This document shows positions 13,152 through 50,872 of a stretch of 50,933 bases of DNA, in pieces (positions within the stretch are counted from its first letter, which is position 1; each line of letters starts with the position of its first letter). The DNA is from a virus. The position numbers were made by a program, and so were the translations under genes. The notes beneath the pieces are model-generated. The model was not told where the DNA came from and did no database searches. It was given only the letters and a program-made list of their open reading frames with translations. Location: IMG/VR virus record IMGVR_UViG_3300025892_000030, positions 1-50,933 of that record; one strand, given 5' to 3'.

Positions 13152-13610
13152 TTACTTCGCAGTTAGAATTTCTAAGATTTTATCCATCTTAGATTCTAAG
13201 GAATCTACCCGTTGCTCTAAAGTCTCTGGAGACTTCGTAGTCTCTTTTGCTTTATTCTTAGACCCTTTGGGTCTGCCTCGGCCCTTCTTAGGAGCCTCTG
13301 CAACCTTTGGTTGAACCTTGGGTGTAGCCTTCGGCTCAACACTAGGAATCTTAATAGTAATTAAGATGTCTGAGGGAACCACAGTGGCTTGAAAAGCCAA
13401 TTGCACATCGCCATGAGTCATCTTAGAGTTCAATACTTCTCCGAAGTAATGACCTACAGCACCTCTCATCCTGTTAAACAGGACATAACGGTCCTGTGAA
13501 GTTAAATTTAACTTCGTGGCGAGTAGGTTAGTGTAGTGTGAGCATACAGCGTTGAACTGCTTGCCAGATGCCAGCTTGTTGTCGTCGATGTTGTATGTGA
13601 ATGTCGCCAT
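13152..13610 (-). CDS. AT-hook DNA-binding protein, first gene of leftward operon
   Basis: The start is ATG 13610, with AGGAG seven bases upstream; the longer ORF to 13712 is probably untranslated leader. The 152-aa product has an N-terminal domain (MATFTYNIDDNKLASGKQFN onward, to about residue 95), then a Lys/Pro-rich linker, a clear AT-hook core G-R-G-R-P-K-G-S-K-N-K at about residue 110, and a C-terminal coiled coil (EQRVDSLESKMDKILEIL). An AT-hook binds the minor groove of AT-rich DNA. As the gene next to the repeat-filled control region it could bind that region; that is inference. Confidence 0.75.
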   Translation of the reverse strand: MATFTYNIDDNKLASGKQFNAVCSHYTNLLATKLNLTSQDRYVLFNRMRGAVGHYFGEVLNSKMTHGDVQLAFQATVVPSDILITIKIPSVEPKATPKVQPKVAEAPKKGRGRPKGSKNKAKETTKSPETLEQRVDSLESKMDKILEILTAK

Positions 13611-13681
13611 GATAAAACTCCTGAGTTGCCAAGCAGCCGAATTGCTGGAGGCCATATCAAGGTGCTGGAATCCGATTTGAT

Positions 13682-14011
13682 TGTCAAGGCTTTCTGGTGC
13701 GCGATTAATCATGATCGCATTATGCGCCTGTTAACACGCGAAGAAAGCCTGCATCATGTGCACATGTCATCAGTGCATGTTGTGATCGTCCCTAGCAGTT
13801 GCCGAAACCCTTGTCAACACTTATTTTTTAGAACGTAGTTCTAGGGGTCGTGTGCATGTGCGGCCATGCGCGATGGCAAACTTTTTGAGCTTTGTCACAT
13901 GAATTATTTTCATAATCATAGATTATGATGGGGTTGTGCATGTGTATATACCTGCGCGATTGGCAGCTTTTTGGCGGGTCTGTCAAGTATTTTTTAACTA
14001 CTTTGTAGTTA
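13682..14011. repeat. Degenerate ~85-bp repeats with TGTCAA box and 3-nt-loop hairpin
   Basis: TGTYAA/C boxes start at 13729, 13812, 13893 and 13981 (steps 83, 81, 88), with another at 13682. In the units starting at 13812, 13893 and 13981 a perfect inverted repeat with a 3-nt loop follows 14-17 bases later: TAGAAC/GTTCTA (13829-13843), TCATAATC/GATTATGA (13910-13928) and TAACTAC/GTAGTTA (13995-14011). The unit starting at 13729 has a 12-bp palindrome CATGTGCACATG (13755-13766). GTGCATGT recurs at 13773, 13852 and 13936, and GCGCGAT at 13699, 13868 and 13954, each followed in the last two by CTTTTT. Stem sequences differ while position and loop size are kept. Confidence 0.8.
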
Positions 14012-14024
14012 GTTCTGGAATTCT

Positions 14025-14340
14025 CATAGTATTATTATACTATGGATAGAAATACTCGTAAGTCTCTGAAAATCCTCGGAGAGTTTTAAAGAATCTTTAA
14101 AACTAACACACTAGGGAGTCCTCTGGGACTCTATCAAGTACATAAGAATTACAAAGTAATTTTATTTAATATTACTTTAAAGAACTTTAAAGTATTCTGG
14201 AGTACTCTGGAGTTTCTTAAGAAACTCTGAGGCTTGGACTCTGGAAATCTTTAGAGTTTCTTAGGAAACTCTGGAGTCCTTGGAGGGTGGGCAGGAGGCC
14301 AGTACCCCCCACCCCCATATATACTAAATGTTATACATTT
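14025..14340. repeat. Cluster of perfect short-loop inverted repeats
   Basis: At least seven perfect inverted repeats sit in 316 bp: CATAGTAT/ATACTATG (14025-14044, 4-nt loop); AGTTTTAAAG/CTTTAAAACT (14082-14104, 3-nt loop); GAGTCC/GGACTC (14116-14131); AATTAC/GTAATT (14147-14161, 3-nt loop); TACTTTAAAG/CTTTAAAGTA (14173-14194, 2-nt loop); the loopless GAGTTTCTTAAGAAACTC (14210-14227); AGAGTTTC/GAAACTCT (14253-14272), itself enclosed by GGACTC (14236-14241) and GAGTCC (14274-14279); and AAATGT/ACATTT (14326-14340, 3-nt loop). None has a terminator-like T-run. Confidence 0.8.
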
Positions 14341-14373
14341 TTGGAAACTCTGGAGTGTCAAGCAGGTACTTCT

Positions 14374-14483
14374 GGGCGGGGCTAATAGACCCACTAAGGG
14401 CGGGTATTTAAAGACCCACTAACCGGACAACATCCTATAAGGATCTTATAGCTTCCTGTCCGGTTAGGGCGGGTATTTAAAGA
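14374..14483. repeat. GGGCGGG direct repeats flanking a nested hairpin
   Basis: Two adjoining units of 24-25 bp, GGGCGGG then an AT-rich spacer then AGACCCACTAA, lie at 14374-14397 and 14398-14422. A third partial unit (GGGCGGGTATTTAAAGA) is at 14467-14483. Between units two and three lies a two-step hairpin: outer 10-bp stem TAACCGGACA (14420-14429) with TGTCCGGTTA (14457-14466), symmetric 5-nt internal bulges, and an inner 7-bp stem CTATAAG/CTTATAG (14435-14451) closed by a 3-nt loop. The unit-plus-hairpin layout looks like a protein-recognition or origin element. Confidence 0.85.
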
Positions 14484-14533
14484 AGATAAACTTATACATA
14501 TATCTATATGTAACCGGGGGGACCGATTACGTT

Positions 14534-14562
14534 AGTATATAGCTGAAAGTGCGTTTTGTCAA
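14534..14562 (-). promoter_or_regulatory. Leftward sigma70-like promoter
   Basis: On the minus strand TTGACA (complement of 14557-14562), 17-bp spacer, TATACT (complement of 14534-14539). Start point near 14527. It would drive leftward transcription through the repeat region into the AT-hook gene at 13610, with a leader of about 900 nt full of hairpins. Its -35 box is one arm of a palindrome shared with the rightward promoter. Confidence 0.75.
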
Positions 14563-14576
14563 GTTAAATTTACTAC

Positions 14577-14604
14577 TTGACAAAATGGCTATAAGCTCTA
14601 TAAT
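14577..14604 (+). promoter_or_regulatory. Rightward consensus promoter for terminase/structural operon
   Basis: TTGACA at 14577-14582, 16-bp spacer and TATAAT at 14599-14604: both boxes are perfect. The expected start near 14611 is next to the ATG of terS at 14612, so the message would be leaderless or nearly so. The two -35 boxes lie in a perfect inverted repeat, TTTTGTCAAG (14554-14563) and CTTGACAAAA (14576-14585), with a 12-bp AT-rich centre. This could also act as an operator governing both directions. Confidence 0.85.
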
Positions 14605-14611
14605 GATAAGT

Positions 14612-15001: not shown

Positions 15002-15212
15002 GGGACATGTACCTTTCGGCTATAAGAAAGAAAAAAAAGAATTAATACCTGTGCCTCTAGAACTAGAAGCATTAGAAGATATTAAACAAGCAGTAATTAA
15101 TAAGCAGTTATCTTTACGTGATGGCTCTATGTGGTTAGAGCATAAAACAGGTCGTAAACTAAGTTATCAAGGTTTAAAGAATATAATTGACAATGAAAGA
15201 TTGGGAAATTAA
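14979..15212 (+). CDS. Small protein between terminase subunits, 77 aa
   Basis: ATG 14979 overlaps the terS end by 23 nt; the stop at 15212 overlaps terL by 20 nt. The product begins MENTRKLRGHVPFGYKKEKK and ends SYQGLKNIIDNERLGN. A Pro-Phe-Gly-Tyr segment followed by a helical region resembles the domain that in serine recombinases follows the catalytic part, and similar short proteins sit by the terminase in several marine phages, from memory. It lacks any recombinase catalytic domain. Possibly a DNA-binding packaging helper. Confidence 0.6.
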   Translation: MENTRKLRGHVPFGYKKEKKELIPVPLELEALEDIKQAVINKQLSLRDGSMWLEHKTGRKLSYQGLKNIIDNERLGN

Positions 15213-16869
15213 TCCAGATAAGTATCTTAAAGATGAAGATAATAACTTTATCTTTAAGGTAGACGGTACACCTAGATTAAAAGGTGGTAGACCTAAAGGC
15301 TCAAAAGGCAGAGGATATAATTATCATAGTCAAACTAAGGCTAAGTTAACTGCTAACCGAGTTATAAAAGATAAACAAAAGAAAATAGCTAAGACTGAAT
15401 CTAAGCTACATGCTTATAAAGAATCTTTAAAAAACACAAAGCAAACAATAAAAAAGCTAGAAAACTCAGACTCCGATAAAATTATAACCCCCGAAGAGCT
15501 ATCAAACACCCCCAAGCAAGTTCAACAAGAAGCAAAAGAAAATGTTATCTTTGCTCCAAATGAAGGGCCTCAGACAGAGTTCCTTGCAGCAGCCGAGACA
15601 GACGTTCTGTACGGCGGAGCAGCAGGGGGTGGTAAGAGCTATGCAATGCTCGTAGATCCTCTCAGATACGCTCACAGAGCCGCACACAGGGCCTTAATTA
15701 TTAGACGGTCTATGCCAGAGCTACGAGAGCTAATAGACAAAAGCCGAGAGTTATATCCCAAGGCTTTTCCCGGTTGTAAATACCGTGAAGTAGAAAAGCT
15801 TTGGAACTTCCCCAGCGGAGCTAAGATAGAGTTCGGCTTCCTTGAGCGTGATGCAGATGTATATCGTTATCAGGGACAAGCATATAGTTGGATAGGTTTT
15901 GATGAAATTACTCACTTACCCACAGAATTCTCTTGGAACTACCTAGCTTCAAGATTACGTACTACTGATTCAGAAATTGTTCCTTACATGCGTTGCACTG
16001 CTAACCCCGGCGGCGTGGGCGCTCACTGGGTAAAGAATAGATATATATTACCATCAGATCCTGATACAAGCTTTGTAGGCAAAGATGGCCTTACAAGAAA
16101 GTTTATACCGGCTCGTTTAGAAGATAATCCTTTCCTAGCAATGGATGGTCGTTATGAAAAGATGCTTAAAGCCTTACCTCCTACACAACGTAAGCAATTA
16201 CTAGAAGGTAACTGGGATGTTAATGAGGGCGCAGCCTTTACTGAATTTAGTTTAGAAGAACATGTAATACCGCCATTTCAAATCCCGATTCACTGGGATA
16301 GAGTTAAAGGAATAGATTATGGCTACGCTAGTGAGTCAGCCTGTGTTTGGGCTACTATAGACCCAAGTGATGGCACCCTCATTGTTTATAGAGAATTATA
16401 CCGTAAAGGCTTGACAGGACAGGATTTAGGCACTATAATAACAGAGATGGAAGTAGAAGACCCCTTCTCAGTTCAAGGTGTACTAGATACAGCAGCATGG
16501 TCCCGTACTGGGACTACAGGCCCTACAGTCGGTGAAACATTAGTAAGACAGGGCCATAAGCTGCGTAGAGCAGATAAAAACAGAATACAGGGCAAAATTC
16601 AAATCCACGAATACTTGAGGCTTCAGCCAAGCGGACGACCAAGATTACAGATTTTCAGTAGCTGTCCTAGCCTGATACGCGAGCTTCAAAGTATTCCTCT
16701 GGATAAGACTAATCCTGAAGATGTCAATACTCATGCGCCTGACCACGCCTATGATGCCTTACGGTATCTTATTATGTCAAGGCCAAGAGTAAATGACCCA
16801 CTAGCACAAATGCGGCACTTACGTATGGAACAGGCTTATACACCAGCAGACGCAGATTTCGGATATTAA
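15193..16869 (+). CDS. terL: Terminase large subunit
   Basis: This ATPase-nuclease packages DNA into the prohead. The start ATG 15193 (MKDWEINPDKYLK) is preferred to TTG 15187; 558 aa. The N-terminus has an AT-hook-like GGRPKGSKGRG (about 31-41), then a Lys-rich coiled coil. The ATPase shows Walker A GGAAGGGKS (about 141-149) and Walker B with F-D-E at about 236-238. The nuclease domain shows GIDYGYA with Asp about 375, then LDTAAW and a final DHAYDALRYL. Unlike most terminases it carries about 90 extra N-terminal residues before the ATPase core. Confidence 0.92.
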   Translation: MKDWEINPDKYLKDEDNNFIFKVDGTPRLKGGRPKGSKGRGYNYHSQTKAKLTANRVIKDKQKKIAKTESKLHAYKESLKNTKQTIKKLENSDSDKIITPEELSNTPKQVQQEAKENVIFAPNEGPQTEFLAAAETDVLYGGAAGGGKSYAMLVDPLRYAHRAAHRALIIRRSMPELRELIDKSRELYPKAFPGCKYREVEKLWNFPSGAKIEFGFLERDADVYRYQGQAYSWIGFDEITHLPTEFSWNYLASRLRTTDSEIVPYMRCTANPGGVGAHWVKNRYILPSDPDTSFVGKDGLTRKFIPARLEDNPFLAMDGRYEKMLKALPPTQRKQLLEGNWDVNEGAAFTEFSLEEHVIPPFQIPIHWDRVKGIDYGYASESACVWATIDPSDGTLIVYRELYRKGLTGQDLGTIITEMEVEDPFSVQGVLDTAAWSRTGTTGPTVGETLVRQGHKLRRADKNRIQGKIQIHEYLRLQPSGRPRLQIFSSCPSLIRELQSIPLDKTNPEDVNTHAPDHAYDALRYLIMSRPRVNDPLAQMRHLRMEQAYTPADADFGY

Positions 16870-30667: not shown

Positions 30668-33600
30668 ATGAGCAATAAAAATAAAGCCTTGACTGCTTTG
30701 AAGCGTAAAAAGTTTAATACTGGTAGTACTGCTACAGCCGATACTACTACTAGTCGTGGCCCCGGAAGTCCCGGATATGTAGGCCCTGTTGTTAACCCTC
30801 TAGACGATGTTGAAATTGATGATCCTGCAAAAAATAGTTTAGCAATTCAGCCAGAGCCTTTTGAAGTTACGGCTGCTAAAGTAGATAAAGCTGGTGTGGC
30901 TTTTAATAATAAAGCACTGGATAAAATATTAGCGCAGAAAAGTATAGACGCTACTTATGATCCTGAAACAGGTAACTACTCTTATAATGCTTTTGGAAAT
31001 ACTTTTGAAAGAACTCCAGCACAAATGGCACTTGCAGCAGGTTATAAAAATTTAAGCCCTTTTATGGGAGGTCAAAGTTTTCAAACTCAAAACGAAGACA
31101 TATCAAAACTTGATACAGGAACTCCTGCAGTAAACACAAAAGCTGCTATAGGGGCTTCTGCTACAAAAGGAACTGCTACAACTAGCACTGCGGACACAGC
31201 AAAATCACCGTTGGGTTTTGATGCTCAGAATGTTGCGAGAGCTTTTAAAGAAAAAACAGGTTTTAATTATAAGGTTAGTAGTGACGGTAAAATTAGATTT
31301 CAGGACGGTGCAGGTAGATCATTTACAAGAGATCCTGAGGACTTAGCTGAAGAGTTTAAGTTAGAGGGAGACTTTGGAACAAGTTTAAAGGCATCTACCT
31401 ACACTGCCGGTGAAGTAAAAGAAAGTGAGTTTGTTAAAGCCGCTGGTGCTAAAAGAGATAAAGACCCTATAACAGGTTTACCTATTGAGCCAACAAAAGC
31501 CGAAGCTGGTAAAGCAACTCTTACTGATGCGGCTGTTGCAGCAGAGCGTGATAGTTTTGAAGAAACACTTGCTAAAGGTACTGCGGCTCAAAGACCCACC
31601 GAAGAACCCCGTGTACTAAGCGATAAACAGGCTAAAGTAGAGTACAGCCAGTCTGAAGCAGGTAGAGCTGTCTATACTGCAAAAGCTCAAGCAGAGCAAC
31701 AATATGCTAATAAAGAAAGATCTATAAGAGAGCAAATACGTAGAGCAGCTACACCAGAAGAACGTGATAAGTTAAATGATGAGCTTGTTGCTAACAGCAG
31801 GAACAGATCAAAAATGCTTTCTGATTTTAGCCTTGCAGTTAAAGAAGGAGCAGCATTAACAAAACAAAACGCAGCCTCTGGAATAAAGCAATACGCAGAA
31901 GGTGTAACCACAGCTCAAACACAAGAAGTAGCTGATGTAGCTGGCCCCGCTGTTACGACAAGCGAAGGCGTTACTATTAGTGCAGATGATATAACTAAGT
32001 TAAAACTAGAGGCTGATAAGCGTGGCGTAGGCGTTGAAGAATTAAAAGAGTATCAAGATTTAATTGCTACTAAAGATCGTACAGAACAATCAGGAACTGC
32101 CGCTACAAGGGTTGATCCTGTTACAGGTCAGCCTATATCTCAAGCTTTAGATGTTACAGAAGAGGGTTTACCTACAGCCGAAGCCGCTACGGCTGCTTTT
32201 GTTGCTTCTGATTATACACCTGATGGTGGTAATACTACTATAGATAATACACCGGCTTATAAAAAAGCTGCGAGCCGTGAAGCACAGGTAGGCACAGCAG
32301 CAGAGCGTACAGCAGCAGACCTTGGTACGGCTCCTTCAGTAGACTTTGAAAGCCGTGAAGCTATTACAGGTACAGCACCTCAAGGAGATGCTTCTCAGAT
32401 TGGTGGTGTCCCTACAATGGCTGCTGCAAGTCGTAACGCTGTACAGGGCAAAGAAAGAAAAGTAGCTGCCGCAGACATGATGGCAGTTGTTGCTGGAGTT
32501 CCTGAAGAAGTTACTGCTGCAATCTCTGAAGACCCTGCAACTGTACAGGCTCAAATAGATGAAGGAGCTGATCCACAAGTAACCGCAGCGGTAGCAGCTT
32601 TACCTGAAGAAGCCCTTGTTTCTGTACAGATGGAGAACCTCTTAGCCGGTATGGAAGACGGTGAAACTCCTGCGTGGGCTAGACCTGCGGTAGCACAGAT
32701 AGAGCAGATGATGGCTCAGAGAGGCTTGTCAGCGTCTACTGTAGGTCGTGATGCTTTGTTTAATGCTATTATTCAAAGTGCTTTACCTATGGCTCAGAGC
32801 AATGCTCAAGCTCTTCAGCAGAGAGCACAACAAAACCTTAGTAACGAGCAGCAAGCTAACTTAGCATCTGCTCAAAATACTATGACTGTGCGTATGCAGA
32901 ACCTTGCTAATCGTCAGACTGCTGCTTCTCAGACAGCTTCTATGGCCCAAGAGATTAAAGTACAACAAGGCAGCTTTAAGCAGCAAGCAACTATTACTAC
33001 AGCGCAGCAAGAACAACAAACTGAGATGGCTACTTTTCAAGCTGCTCAACAGAAATCACAACAAGAGTCTGCACAGCGTCAACAAGCTGCTATAGCTGAA
33101 TTAAATACTAATGCTCAAATGGATCTAGCAAACCTGCAAGCCATGAATGCTGCTGATTCCGAAAGCATGAGTGCTGAACAACAAGCTCGTTTAACTGGTT
33201 ACAATGCTCAGATTGCTAAGGTTATGCGTCAAGCAGACTTAAAGCAGGACATGGAAAAAGCCAACTTAAACGCTTCTTTACAGCTAGAGCTTTCTAATTT
33301 ATCAGAAAAGAATGCTGCTGCTAAAGATACAATGACAGCAGAAAACCAAGAAAAGCTGACTAACCTACAGACTCTTGTAGAGTTTAGAAAAGGAGATGCA
33401 CAGTTTGCTCAACAGATGGATATGGCTAACATGTCTAATGAGCAGCAAATGGAATTAGCTATGTTGCAAGAAAGGGCAGCTACAGACGCCGCTAACTTTA
33501 CAGCAGACAATCAATTTGAACTAACTCGCTTAAATAATGTAGTAGCTAGATCAATAAGACAAGCTGAACTTAATCAGCGTATGGAAGAAGTAAATCTTGA

Positions 33601-34999
33601 TGCAAAGTTAAAATTAGAATTATCTGAATTAACTGAAGCAAATGCAACTTCTAGAGCTAACATGAGTGCTGAACAGCAAACGCGATTAGCTAACTTAAAT
33701 GTTTTAGTAGACTTTAAAAAGACTAATGTAGCTATGGCCCAGCAAATGGACTTAGCTAACCTAGGCAACGAGCAACAGATGGAGCTTGCTAACCTAGCTG
33801 AAAAGGCCGCTACAGATTCAGCCAACATGACTGCTGAGAATAAACTTAGATCTCAAAAGTTAAATAACTATGTTCAAGTTATGTCTCAAGATGAGCAGCT
33901 TAAAATGCAAGCAGATCTTGCTAATCTTTCTATGGAAGAAAAGATCTCTTTAGCAAATCTAAGCAATCAGCAACAGTCTGACATGGCCTCTATGAGTGCT
34001 GAGAATGTAGCTGAACTACAGCGTTATGAAAAACAAATGGGTGCTGCACAGCTTAATGCTAACTTAGCACAGCAAATGGGCTTGGCTAACCTTAGTAATC
34101 AGCAACAAGCATCTATGTTTAATGCTCAAATAGACGCTAATTTAGACATGAAGCAGTTTGATGCTAATCAGCAGATGGCATTAGCTAATAGTCAGTTTAT
34201 GCAATCAATGACTATGAAAAACCTAGACAACAAACAGCAAGCGGCTATGCAAAATGCTACTGCAATGGCTTCTATGGATCTACAAGCGGCTGATAATTTA
34301 ACTAAAGTGTCTATTGAAAATGCTAGGAACTTTTTAGCTATGGACATGGCTGAGTTAAATAATGATCAGCAGGCTGCTATGTTAAACGCACAGCAAGCCC
34401 AGCAAACTTTGTTATCTAATTTTGCAGCCGCTAATGCCTCAAAACAATTTAATGCTACCTCTGAGCAGCAGACAAATCAGTTTATGGCTAATCTTGGTCA
34501 GACAATGAATCAGTTTAATGCTTCACAGGCTAACGCCATGACGCAATTCAATGCTTCAGAAAAGAATAGGTTGGCTGCTATAGACGCTGGCAATGCTTTA
34601 GAAGCTGATAAAATGAATACTCAGATTAATGCACAAGTTGATCAATATAATGCTGACAATGAACTTAAAAGAGAGCAATGGAATGCTGCGAATGAACAGG
34701 CAGTAGAGCAATCAAATGTTGCGTGGCGTAGACAGGCTAATACTATAGACACTGCGGCTCAAAATGCTGCAAATCAATTAGCAGTTCAACAAGCTTTTTC
34801 GTTAAATGCTACAGAGCAAAACATGTTATGGCAGCAATTAAGTGATGAGCAAAATTATTTAAGGCAGGGTTATGAAAACGAGCAGCAAAGAAGAACTACT
34901 TTGTATGCTACAGCTTTAGCTAATGAAAGTGCCACAGGCCCTTCTGGGACTGTAAATTCAATTGTTACTGCAATCTTAAAAGCAATGGGAGGAACTTAG
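30668..34999 (+). CDS. Very large Gln-rich repetitive virion protein, 1443 aa
   Basis: ATG 30668 is 5 bp after the holin-like gene. The N-terminal half is charged and has two related segments with Tyr-Asp-Pro-Glu-Thr-Gly...Phe-Glu-Arg-Thr-Pro and a later version with Phe-x-Arg-Asp-Pro. The C-terminal half (roughly residues 710-1400) is a Gln/Ala/Asn/Met-rich array of helical repeats such as QMDLANLGNEQQMELANL and QMGLANLSNQQQASMF. It is likely long helical bundles, as in internal core or ejection proteins. The family is unknown to me; the role is deduced from length and location before other virion proteins. Confidence 0.65.
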   Translation: MSNKNKALTALKRKKFNTGSTATADTTTSRGPGSPGYVGPVVNPLDDVEIDDPAKNSLAIQPEPFEVTAAKVDKAGVAFNNKALDKILAQKSIDATYDPETGNYSYNAFGNTFERTPAQMALAAGYKNLSPFMGGQSFQTQNEDISKLDTGTPAVNTKAAIGASATKGTATTSTADTAKSPLGFDAQNVARAFKEKTGFNYKVSSDGKIRFQDGAGRSFTRDPEDLAEEFKLEGDFGTSLKASTYTAGEVKESEFVKAAGAKRDKDPITGLPIEPTKAEAGKATLTDAAVAAERDSFEETLAKGTAAQRPTEEPRVLSDKQAKVEYSQSEAGRAVYTAKAQAEQQYANKERSIREQIRRAATPEERDKLNDELVANSRNRSKMLSDFSLAVKEGAALTKQNAASGIKQYAEGVTTAQTQEVADVAGPAVTTSEGVTISADDITKLKLEADKRGVGVEELKEYQDLIATKDRTEQSGTAATRVDPVTGQPISQALDVTEEGLPTAEAATAAFVASDYTPDGGNTTIDNTPAYKKAASREAQVGTAAERTAADLGTAPSVDFESREAITGTAPQGDASQIGGVPTMAAASRNAVQGKERKVAAADMMAVVAGVPEEVTAAISEDPATVQAQIDEGADPQVTAAVAALPEEALVSVQMENLLAGMEDGETPAWARPAVAQIEQMMAQRGLSASTVGRDALFNAIIQSALPMAQSNAQALQQRAQQNLSNEQQANLASAQNTMTVRMQNLANRQTAASQTASMAQEIKVQQGSFKQQATITTAQQEQQTEMATFQAAQQKSQQESAQRQQAAIAELNTNAQMDLANLQAMNAADSESMSAEQQARLTGYNAQIAKVMRQADLKQDMEKANLNASLQLELSNLSEKNAAAKDTMTAENQEKLTNLQTLVEFRKGDAQFAQQMDMANMSNEQQMELAMLQERAATDAANFTADNQFELTRLNNVVARSIRQAELNQRMEEVNLDAKLKLELSELTEANATSRANMSAEQQTRLANLNVLVDFKKTNVAMAQQMDLANLGNEQQMELANLAEKAATDSANMTAENKLRSQKLNNYVQVMSQDEQLKMQADLANLSMEEKISLANLSNQQQSDMASMSAENVAELQRYEKQMGAAQLNANLAQQMGLANLSNQQQASMFNAQIDANLDMKQFDANQQMALANSQFMQSMTMKNLDNKQQAAMQNATAMASMDLQAADNLTKVSIENARNFLAMDMAELNNDQQAAMLNAQQAQQTLLSNFAAANASKQFNATSEQQTNQFMANLGQTMNQFNASQANAMTQFNASEKNRLAAIDAGNALEADKMNTQINAQVDQYNADNELKREQWNAANEQAVEQSNVAWRRQANTIDTAAQNAANQLAVQQAFSLNATEQNMLWQQLSDEQNYLRQGYENEQQRRTTLYATALANESATGPSGTVNSIVTAILKAMGGT

Positions 35000-48883: not shown

Positions 48884-49142
48884 TACTCTCTAGAATCCTT
48901 AGTAGTCTTTTCTCGTACCACTCTGCTTTCTTTAGATCCTCCGTCCCGTTTTTGTACGGGAACCTCCAGCGGTACTTCATGCTGTTTCCTCTCAAGTAAC
49001 CTATAAACTCGTCTCTTGTTAGCATGGCTTCTATTCCGTCGATGCACTCAATATCTCCACTGTTGTAGTGAGCTGGTCTAGAAACATTATCCCACTCTTC
49101 GGGAGTAACGTCATTAAGTTTCTTTCTAGTATTCTGTTTCAT
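48876..49142 (-). CDS. DUF3310 family protein, second allele
   Basis: The 88-aa protein starts MKQNTRKKLNDVTPEEWDNV and carries RPAHYNSGDIECIDGIEAML then Arg-Gly-Asn-Ser-Met-Lys-Tyr-Arg-Trp-Arg-Phe-Pro-Tyr-Lys-Asn-Gly, as in the copy at 425-733. It lacks about 14 residues of the N-terminal part found there. ATG 49142 overlaps endonuclease I by 4 nt. Confidence 0.85.
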   Translation of the reverse strand: MKQNTRKKLNDVTPEEWDNVSRPAHYNSGDIECIDGIEAMLTRDEFIGYLRGNSMKYRWRFPYKNGTEDLKKAEWYEKRLLRILESNG

Positions 49143-49570
49143 TCTTCACTTCTCCATTCGTCAGGCAGCGTGTCAACAGTAAACCACCTGAAGCCGTTGT
49201 CAGAGGCCCACTCACCGTGAGTACGCTTAGTACCGTCCTTCCTTCTCTTAGCTTGAGGCATAGGAGAGGAGGCGTTAGCAAACAAGAATACCAGTTCAGT
49301 TGTACTAGGTAAAGCTTTCTGAATCCAGATATACTTGGTGAACTCTGCGTAATCCCAGAACCTACCCTTAGCCTCAATGATAATCTTCTTCCTACCGATA
49401 CGCTTTGTAAAGTCGGGATGATAGTTATGTTCTATTACATAAGGAACCTTGCCATCATGGTGTACCCAATCTTGTAGGAGCGTATCATGTAAAGTCTTTT
49501 CCCACTTAGAATCATAGCCACTAGGCTTGTCTTTCTCTATAGGTCGTTTTGCTCTAGGTTTTCTTTTCAA
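49139..49570 (-). CDS. Endonuclease I (T7 gp3-like), second allele
   Basis: This 143-aa version has the same core as 730-1224: an early acidic Lys-Trp-Glu (about 23-25), YHPDF, IIIEAKGRFWDYAEF, then AKRRKDGTKRTHGEWASDNG. The C-terminus is shorter (ending DEWRSEE). The best start is TTG at 49570 (the first version uses GTG); there is no in-frame ATG at that point, and AAGGGG lies upstream. It overlaps the 57-aa gene before it by 4 nt. Confidence 0.83.
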   Translation of the reverse strand: MKRKPRAKRPIEKDKPSGYDSKWEKTLHDTLLQDWVHHDGKVPYVIEHNYHPDFTKRIGRKKIIIEAKGRFWDYAEFTKYIWIQKALPSTTELVFLFANASSPMPQAKRRKDGTKRTHGEWASDNGFRWFTVDTLPDEWRSEE

Positions 49571-49740: not shown

Positions 49741-50015
49741 GATCGCTGAGTCCTTCTAACTACTTCTTCAATGTCTTGAGTGGTGATTGAATCTAACGGC
49801 ATTGTTCTTAGTAGCCTTTTGATAATAGCCTTAGCACCTCTGTACGAGTAAGGTATTGAGTATGCTGTACCATTTTTAAAAGTATATGGATTGTCTCTAG
49901 GTATGTGCTTGGCATTCACCTTAGCAGCTTCTGCGTCTGACAACAAGCTCTTGAGCCACTCTACTGATATCTCTAAAGCTTTCTTGCTAACTCTTTTGGA
50001 TAGTCTTCTGTTCAT
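49737..50015 (-). CDS. Unknown protein, 92 aa, second allele
   Basis: ATG 50015 overlaps the nuclease stop by 4 nt. Starts MNRRLSKRVSKKALEISVEW; shares with the gene at 1209-1493 a W-L-x-S block, a Tyr-x-x-R-x-A-K-x-x-I-K block and a closing S-I-T-x-x-D-I-E. Basic; likely DNA-binding or nuclease partner, by context only. Confidence 0.62.
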   Translation of the reverse strand: MNRRLSKRVSKKALEISVEWLKSLLSDAEAAKVNAKHIPRDNPYTFKNGTAYSIPYSYRGAKAIIKRLLRTMPLDSITTQDIEEVVRRTQRS

Positions 50016-50872
50016 CGTAAGGGAATCTCCAGCACATTAGGTTGTGATATTACTCTGGTAAAGTATTTAACGCCGTTAGAATATTTAAAAGCTCTAAGAC
50101 CACTTCCATTGTTAGAGTCCTTCCAGCACTTAGCTTTGTGAGGGCAGTAGACGCAGCCAGAAGCGAGCCGTAGATTACCTTTCTTACCCTCTGCAATAGG
50201 AGGATAACAAATAGAAGGCGGTTCATCTACCTCTAAGCTATCTTTGATATTGCTTATCTTTGTTCTAATGTTCGGCTTGGATAACTGTCCCGGCCTGAAC
50301 AAGCAGATCTCTCCTGTCTCTTTGTTGATAGCGAAGAAGCCGCCATCCTCTGTACCTTCTGCTTCCTCGTACCCAGCAAGCTGTGCCATGTAACCGAAGG
50401 GATCATCGTCAACCAATGCACCAGAGGAAAACTTTTTAAAAGAGAAGTTAGAGGCTGTCTTAATATCAACTACCTCTCCGTCGATCTTACAGTCCATGTG
50501 ACCTTTGATGCCATCAACCTCTACTTCTTTCTGCATGTCAGTAACAGTATGCCCTGACAGCTTGATGAGGAGGATAGCAACAGACTCAAGAAGATGACCA
50601 TACAAGAACTTAATAAAGGTTGACGGCTGCATACGCTCCTTTGTAAGGTCGGTGTCCTGCATGTCGTACCACACGCGGCGCAGCGGCCTTCCTACATTAG
50701 ACATACGTACTGTCTTAGACTGTAGGTGAGGGGTTGACCAGCCTTCAAGAGCTTCTCTTGTGTTAACAAGAAACTCTTCCATTAGTTCTTCAGGTATGTC
50801 CACTCCCTTGTCGCTGTTGAGGCCGTCAAGTACAGTGTATATGTCATGGATTAGTGTGTCTAAGTTTTTCAT
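50012..50872 (-). CDS. Cas4/RecB-like exonuclease, second allele
   Basis: This 286-aa protein repeats all motifs of 1474-2322: FIKFLYGHLLE, GHMDCKIDGEVVDIKTA, DDPFGYMAQLAGYEEAEGTE, and the Cys cluster with ICYPP then CVYCPHKAKC. By eye, about 60% of residues match the first version. The difference is spread along the length, not in blocks. ATG 50872 overlaps the truncated gene before it by 4 nt. Confidence 0.8.
   Translation of the reverse strand: MKNLDTLIHDIYTVLDGLNSDKGVDIPEELMEEFLVNTREALEGWSTPHLQSKTVRMSNVGRPLRRVWYDMQDTDLTKERMQPSTFIKFLYGHLLESVAILLIKLSGHTVTDMQKEVEVDGIKGHMDCKIDGEVVDIKTASNFSFKKFSSGALVDDDPFGYMAQLAGYEEAEGTEDGGFFAINKETGEICLFRPGQLSKPNIRTKISNIKDSLEVDEPPSICYPPIAEGKKGNLRLASGCVYCPHKAKCWKDSNNGSGLRAFKYSNGVKYFTRVISQPNVLEIPLR

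Follow-up and report, generated by a model that had tools for sequence, protein, structure and literature searches.

The window, a 50,933-base virus record (IMGVR_UViG_3300025892_000030) analysed at its full length, has a GC content of 40%. Its terminase is nearest to those of the Pelagibacter phages HTVC115P, HTVC103P and HTVC104P (63–68% protein identity); HTVC103P-related genomes without isolates, which have GC contents of 31.9–44.4%, are known as "group IV" (PMC8528129). The left arm, on the minus strand, encodes a Cas4-like exonuclease, a family A DNA polymerase, a primase-helicase, a Gp2.5-like SSB and ThyX. The right arm, on the plus strand, encodes terS, terL, portal and structural genes, with ribonucleotide reductase beyond these on the minus strand. 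The junction nuclease endonuclease I is also encoded in the record. Genes for endonuclease I and the Cas4-like exonuclease occur twice, in the same order and on the minus strand, at both record ends (730–1224, 1474–2322, 49139–49570 and 50012–50872); either the pair has been duplicated or the contig is chimeric. Searches of Pfam and PDB sequences with a 1443-aa ORF in the structural arm (30668–34999) gave no match, and PHROGs gave none beyond E 0.9. No tRNA genes were found in a tRNA search.

The replication and packaging arms diverge from a non-coding spacer of approximately 1 kb, one end of which is occupied by an array of short boxes and hairpins (Table 1). The cumulative GC skew reaches its minimum at this spacer, where both arms diverge, although skew here is fully confounded with gene direction. 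Two consensus promoters face away from each other at the far end, with their -35 boxes facing. The most conserved core includes an AT-rich stretch, TATATATACTAA...ATACATTTT, at about 14316–14340, a candidate unwinding element.

Table 1. Features of the spacer and of the adjoining early gene, in window positions
Feature	Position	Strand	Description
Small basic protein gene, 152 aa	13152–13610	-	Helical N-domain, linker with AT-hook GRGRPKGSK, C-terminal helix
Non-coding spacer, palindrome field	13612–14611	none	Between the AT-hook gene and terS
Upstream element	13682–13760	none	TGTCAA, then CTTTCT....AGAAAG flanking GCGCGAT and GCATTATGCG
Box 1, TTGTCAA	13811–13817	+	6 of 7 columns invariant; TGTCAA itself at 13812–13817
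Hairpin 1	13829–13843	none	TAGAAC(GTA)GTTCTA; 6-bp stem, loop GTA
TGCGCGATGGCA	13867–13878	+	Holds first half of the TGGCA...TGTCA direct repeat
Box 2, TGTCAC	13893–13898	+
Hairpin 2	13910–13928	none	TCATAATC(ATA)GATTATGA; 8-bp stem, loop ATA (AAA in relative L005)
TGCGCGATTGGCAG	13953–13966	+
Box 3, TGTCAA	13981–13986	+
Hairpin 3	13995–14011	none	TAACTAC(TTT)GTAGTTA; 7-bp stem, loop TTT
Further tight palindromes	14025–14044, 14082–14104, 14116–14131, 14147–14161, 14173–14194, 14210–14227, 14253–14272	none
Most conserved core	14285–14361	none	GGGCAGGAGGCCA, C-run, TATATATACTAA, ATACATTTT, TGTCAAGCAG
Palindromic cassette	14390–14490	none	GGGTATTTAAAGACCCACTAACCGGACA...TGTCCGGTTAG; copy number and stem vary among near-identical relatives
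Consensus sigma70-type promoter	14534–14562	-	TTGACA-17-TATACT, toward early genes, through the spacer; kept in near relatives
Consensus promoter	14577–14604	+	TTGACA-16-TATAAT, toward terS; kept in near relatives

The initial annotation had described the array as four regular repeats of approximately 85 bp. It consists instead of two full units (81 and 88 bp) followed by a terminal box and hairpin. The supposed first box at 13729 reads TGTTAA, belongs to another element, is out of register and lacks a hairpin; the upstream box that does keep the register is a TGTCAA at about 13682–13688. The remaining three boxes (13812, 13893 and 13981) are each followed, 14–17 bp on, by a perfect hairpin with a 3-nt loop, just as had been described, with the second box reading TGTCAC. 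The stem letters do differ between the three hairpins (TAGAAC, TCATAATC and TAACTAC), and the recurring motifs lie where they had been placed: GTGCATGT at about 13775, 13850 and 13935, and GCGCGAT near 13700, 13868 and 13954. Each unit also carries a direct repeat, TGGCA...TGTCA, spaced 19–20 bp start-to-start (approximately two helical turns), which is present in relatives as well. The array is too divergent to be called in a TRF tandem-repeat scan. In its 85-bp form it is limited to near relatives and to relatives L005 and L009, while the upstream element is conserved in more relatives than the array.

A shuffling test, which the initial annotation had named as a possible refutation, placed the hairpins far above chance. 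Three box-linked triloop hairpins (stem of at least 6 bp, loop of 3 nt, starting 14–17 bp past a TGTCA box) occur in 13682–14011, and two or more such hairpins were found in none of 5000 dinucleotide shuffles of this segment, in which triloop stems of at least 6 bp averaged 0.09 per shuffle. Across 62 related spacers, TGTCAA occurs 145 times against 13.6 expected, a count that partly reflects promoter -35 elements. GCGCGAT occurs 15 times against 0.55 expected, and since its complement occurs only once, the motif is oriented. The boxes had also been read as minus-strand TTGACA elements without -10 partners, and this reading holds: no -10 hexamer lies 16–18 nt past TTGACA at the array boxes, the consensus promoters of the region lie elsewhere, and a sigma70 promoter array on the minus strand was rejected.

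The repeats fall within the minus-strand operon's leader, on the downstream side of the conserved consensus promoter at 14562–14534, and the direct repeats are phased at 19–20 bp. A phage or host regulator acting on the TGTCAA/TGGCA repeats may tune the early operon and the divergent promoters with no part in replication. However, the nearest consensus promoter is 550–850 bp upstream of the boxes, no helix-turn-helix regulator was recognised in the adjacent protein, and the sequence-free palindromes are left unexplained. We regard a purely transcriptional role as possible but rather unlikely.

Palindromes do not end at 14011, where the feature had been closed, but run on in perfect form to 14512. 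The whole window contains 15 perfect hairpins with a stem of at least 7 bp and a loop of 3–4 nt, 12 of them within 13190–14512 (three of these within the AT-hook gene). For 62 distinct related spacers, shuffles predict 1.9 palindromes with arms of at least 10, and 103 were observed; their gaps are mostly 0–4 nt, with a sharp drop at 5. Palindrome density in long relatives is 2.06 per kb of spacer versus 0.035 elsewhere, a 59-fold difference. No such palindromes were found in the similarly sized non-coding spacers of the cultured pelagiphages HTVC103P, HTVC104P and HTVC115P. About half of the related spacers are palindrome-poor, and the TerL tree requires at least 11 switches between the rich and poor states; palindromes are therefore not essential to the group.

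Local variants of the field were also noted. Among relatives whose spacers are almost the same along most of their length, the cassette carries stems such as CCGGACA, CCGAACA, GGTGTCA and GGGGACA, each with matching arms. Relatives L062 and L077 have a different array at the same place, composed of GGTAATGATATTACTGATGCGCGATAAAG-type hairpins beside GCGCGAT motifs. A non-palindromic motif, GTAAGTCTCTGAAAT, at 14062–14081 recurs at the same place in distant spacers. Literature searches turned up no relevant account of hairpin-rich spacers in phages of this kind.

The small basic protein encoded next to the array is the first early gene, with a likely ATG at 13610 preceded by AGGAGT. Its alignment defines a family with a helical N-domain, a disordered lysine-rich or AT-hook linker and a C-terminal helix, and the predicted model of the 152-aa protein has an N-domain pLDDT above 90. 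The AT-hook itself is found only in near relatives of the window and in L009. The protein belongs to no Pfam family, has only a weak PHROG match, and has no match in phage isolates, PDB sequences or fold libraries. The family lies beside 20 of 24 palindrome-rich but 7 of 26 palindrome-poor spacers (Fisher p = 7.5e-5, ignoring ancestry), a co-occurrence that may reflect linkage or joint exchange by adjacency alone. An AT-hook-like motif is also present on the other side of the spacer, in the N-terminus of the large terminase TerL (15187–16869), where it reads GGRPKGSKGRG.

The comparison across relatives that had been suggested for co-varying stems showed stems that are kept while their sequence is altered. 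The stem of hairpin 1 reads TAGAAC, CACTAC, TGCTAC or TTAATC in different relatives, and hairpin 3 has its loop inverted to AAA in L005 and its stem compensated in L088. The distance from box to stem is kept in near relatives whose stems differ (12, 12–13 and 8–9 nt for the three array hairpins). Over all spacer pairs, 586 stem changes are two-sided, compared to about 164 expected if the sides were independent and about 210 with shifted partners; 80% of these two-sided changes stay Watson-Crick, compared to about a third in the shifted controls. With one relative taken per sequence, 111 double changes are Watson-Crick and 18 are unpaired. The initial annotation had concluded from kept structure and changing sequence that selection acts on the fold. 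Pairing is indeed maintained in relatives, and neither of the refuting conditions named there holds; selection does not follow, because the changes favour neither strand, double changes are about as frequent as single ones in long stems, and template switching also yields homogenised arms and inverted loops, so that covariation alone is no proof.

Template switching between inverted repeats is known to homogenise the arms and invert the spacer (PMC8604942), and the T7 replisome has been documented to switch templates in vitro (PMC9484634). Both signatures are found between relatives: among orthologous triloop hairpins with identical 7-nt arms, four of seven loop differences (a small number) are exact inversions, three TTT/AAA and one TTC/GAA, with hairpin 3 of the array among the four. 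In long stems, paired double changes are about as frequent as single changes (84 versus 77), and no strand bias is seen. The palindromes might then be a mutational by-product: template switching between imperfect inverted repeats would both create and re-perfect them in a spacer under no constraint, with function confined to the boxes. Quasipalindrome hotspots do share these features (PMC8604942, PMC7202029), but the spacer differs from them in holding dozens of palindromes in a fixed relation to conserved boxes. Template switching accounts for some of the pairing that persists as the letters change, but not for the restriction to the spacer or the fixed distances to conserved boxes. The sharp cut-off above 4-nt gaps and the palindrome-free spacers of the three cultured phages also stand against a by-product alone, an explanation that we consider unlikely.

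Structured RNA is expected to show G.U intermediates on one strand. Single stem changes give 37 G.T and 30 A.C (ratio 1.23, 95% bootstrap 0.79–1.94), and stems of at least 9 give 18 of each. A larger, redundant count (358 G.T, 248 A.C) leans mildly to the plus strand but is distrusted for shared ancestry; among palindromes found without strand preference, G.T:A.C is about as base composition predicts. Folding z over 408 segments is -1.69 for the plus and -1.83 for the minus strand. Because G.T changes are as common as A.C changes and neither strand folds better than the other, the hairpins and palindromes are probably kept as DNA, not as RNA. A plus-strand non-coding RNA, or a structured leader of the minus-strand early operon, was at first favoured by plus-strand folding and was dropped once the unbiased strand tests came out even. 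Compensatory changes are present, the consensus fold is better on the plus strand (-286 versus -254), G.U pairs appear on that strand in the second stems of the units (alternating purine-pyrimidine sequence can self-pair by composition alone), and a conserved promoter precedes the minus strand. However, no plus-strand promoter was found upstream of the array, and the minus strand, which bears the promoter, is not favoured. Rfam gave no match at gathering score, and an RNase P search, as a route to a known-RNA control for the G.U test, returned no loci. Hairpins selected as RNA are therefore improbable.

It is very improbable that the array is a pac site recognised by the small terminase encoded next door: the spacer does lie directly upstream of terS and terL, with repeats and palindromes near terS and the AT-hook-like motif in TerL, but the array is 600–900 bp away from terS, toward the replication genes, and palindrome-rich and -poor states alternate across the TerL tree.

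Iteron-type replication origins are known from lambda ori and the plasmids RK2, F and P1. The spacer resembles these in its tandem short boxes (TGTCA, and TGGCA...TGTCA at the spacing given above), some dyad symmetry, helical phasing, an AT-rich stretch and adjoining replication genes. It differs in having only two full units, palindromes that are sequence-free and vary per unit, and no recognised initiator gene; searches with the adjacent protein recognised no replication initiator family near the spacer.

The early promoters of phage N4 are hairpins with 3-nt loops whose stem letters are free if paired and which extrude in vivo from supercoiled DNA (PMC4496689). The array hairpins resemble these promoters of the N4 virion RNA polymerase in their short stems, 3-nt loops, common C-G closing pair and free stem letters (PMC4496689). 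Only hairpin 1, with its GTA loop, fits the N4 pattern of a 5–7 bp stem, a 5'G...3'A triloop and a C:G closing pair; loops ATA and TTT do not, and the boxes differ from N4 promoters. No T7/N4-family RNA polymerase was found among the large ORFs of the record, which may be incomplete, and N4-type hairpin promoters were rejected on this ground. REP and other palindromic extragenic elements (PMC12306157, PMC8266576) are likewise extragenic palindromes with cassette-like copy changes of the kind seen at 14390–14490; here, unlike there, a single spacer is involved and the stems form no repeated sequence family. No REP-type transposase was recognised in the proteins scanned.

We conclude that the spacer is a real, well-bounded cis-acting DNA region, most likely for origin and/or control functions, in which the hairpins are either functional DNA or by-products of template switching. 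The array itself would belong to a control region that acts in cis as double-stranded DNA, most likely a replication origin and/or a master control spacer; this is the explanation we favour, tentatively. Origin iterons and regulator binding sites, both named in the initial annotation, remain the leading candidates. In favour are the association of boxes and hairpins beyond chance, the palindrome excess concentrated in this spacer, the changes without strand bias, the N4 precedent for extrusion, the TGTCAA excess, the position where the arms diverge, the kept distances, the phased TGKCA repeats, the AT-rich core, the divergent promoters, and the presence in the record of family A DNA polymerase, primase-helicase, Gp2.5-like SSB and endonuclease I. 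Against it are the lack of a recognised initiator, the many palindrome-poor spacers (those of HTVC103P, HTVC104P and HTVC115P included), the narrow distribution of the 85-bp array, the possible linkage effect behind the co-occurring gene and a skew confounded with gene direction.

Under the origin or control explanation, a sequence-specific protein would bind the TGTCAA/TGGCA boxes and GCGCGAT as iteron-like sites. The tight-loop palindromes would be extruded into small hairpins or cruciforms where the DNA is negatively supercoiled or single-stranded, helping the duplex to open or labelling the site. Stems would stay paired while their letters drift, partly through template switching by the replisome between palindrome arms, and the adjacent basic protein may serve the region. 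More speculatively, and doubtful in our view, the signal may be partly the fold and not the letters: sequence-free DNA hairpins with 3–4 nt loops, set apart by conserved boxes, that a new family of small basic proteins encoded alongside would recognise.

RNA structure is normally proved by compensatory base changes. Since template switching can produce such changes in DNA palindromes, the spacer, where they occur in bulk and without strand bias, is a warning to anyone predicting structured RNAs in phages. If it is an origin or master switch, it would offer both a site and a candidate protein for experiments in the uncultured marine HTVC103P-related group (cf. group IV, PMC8528129).
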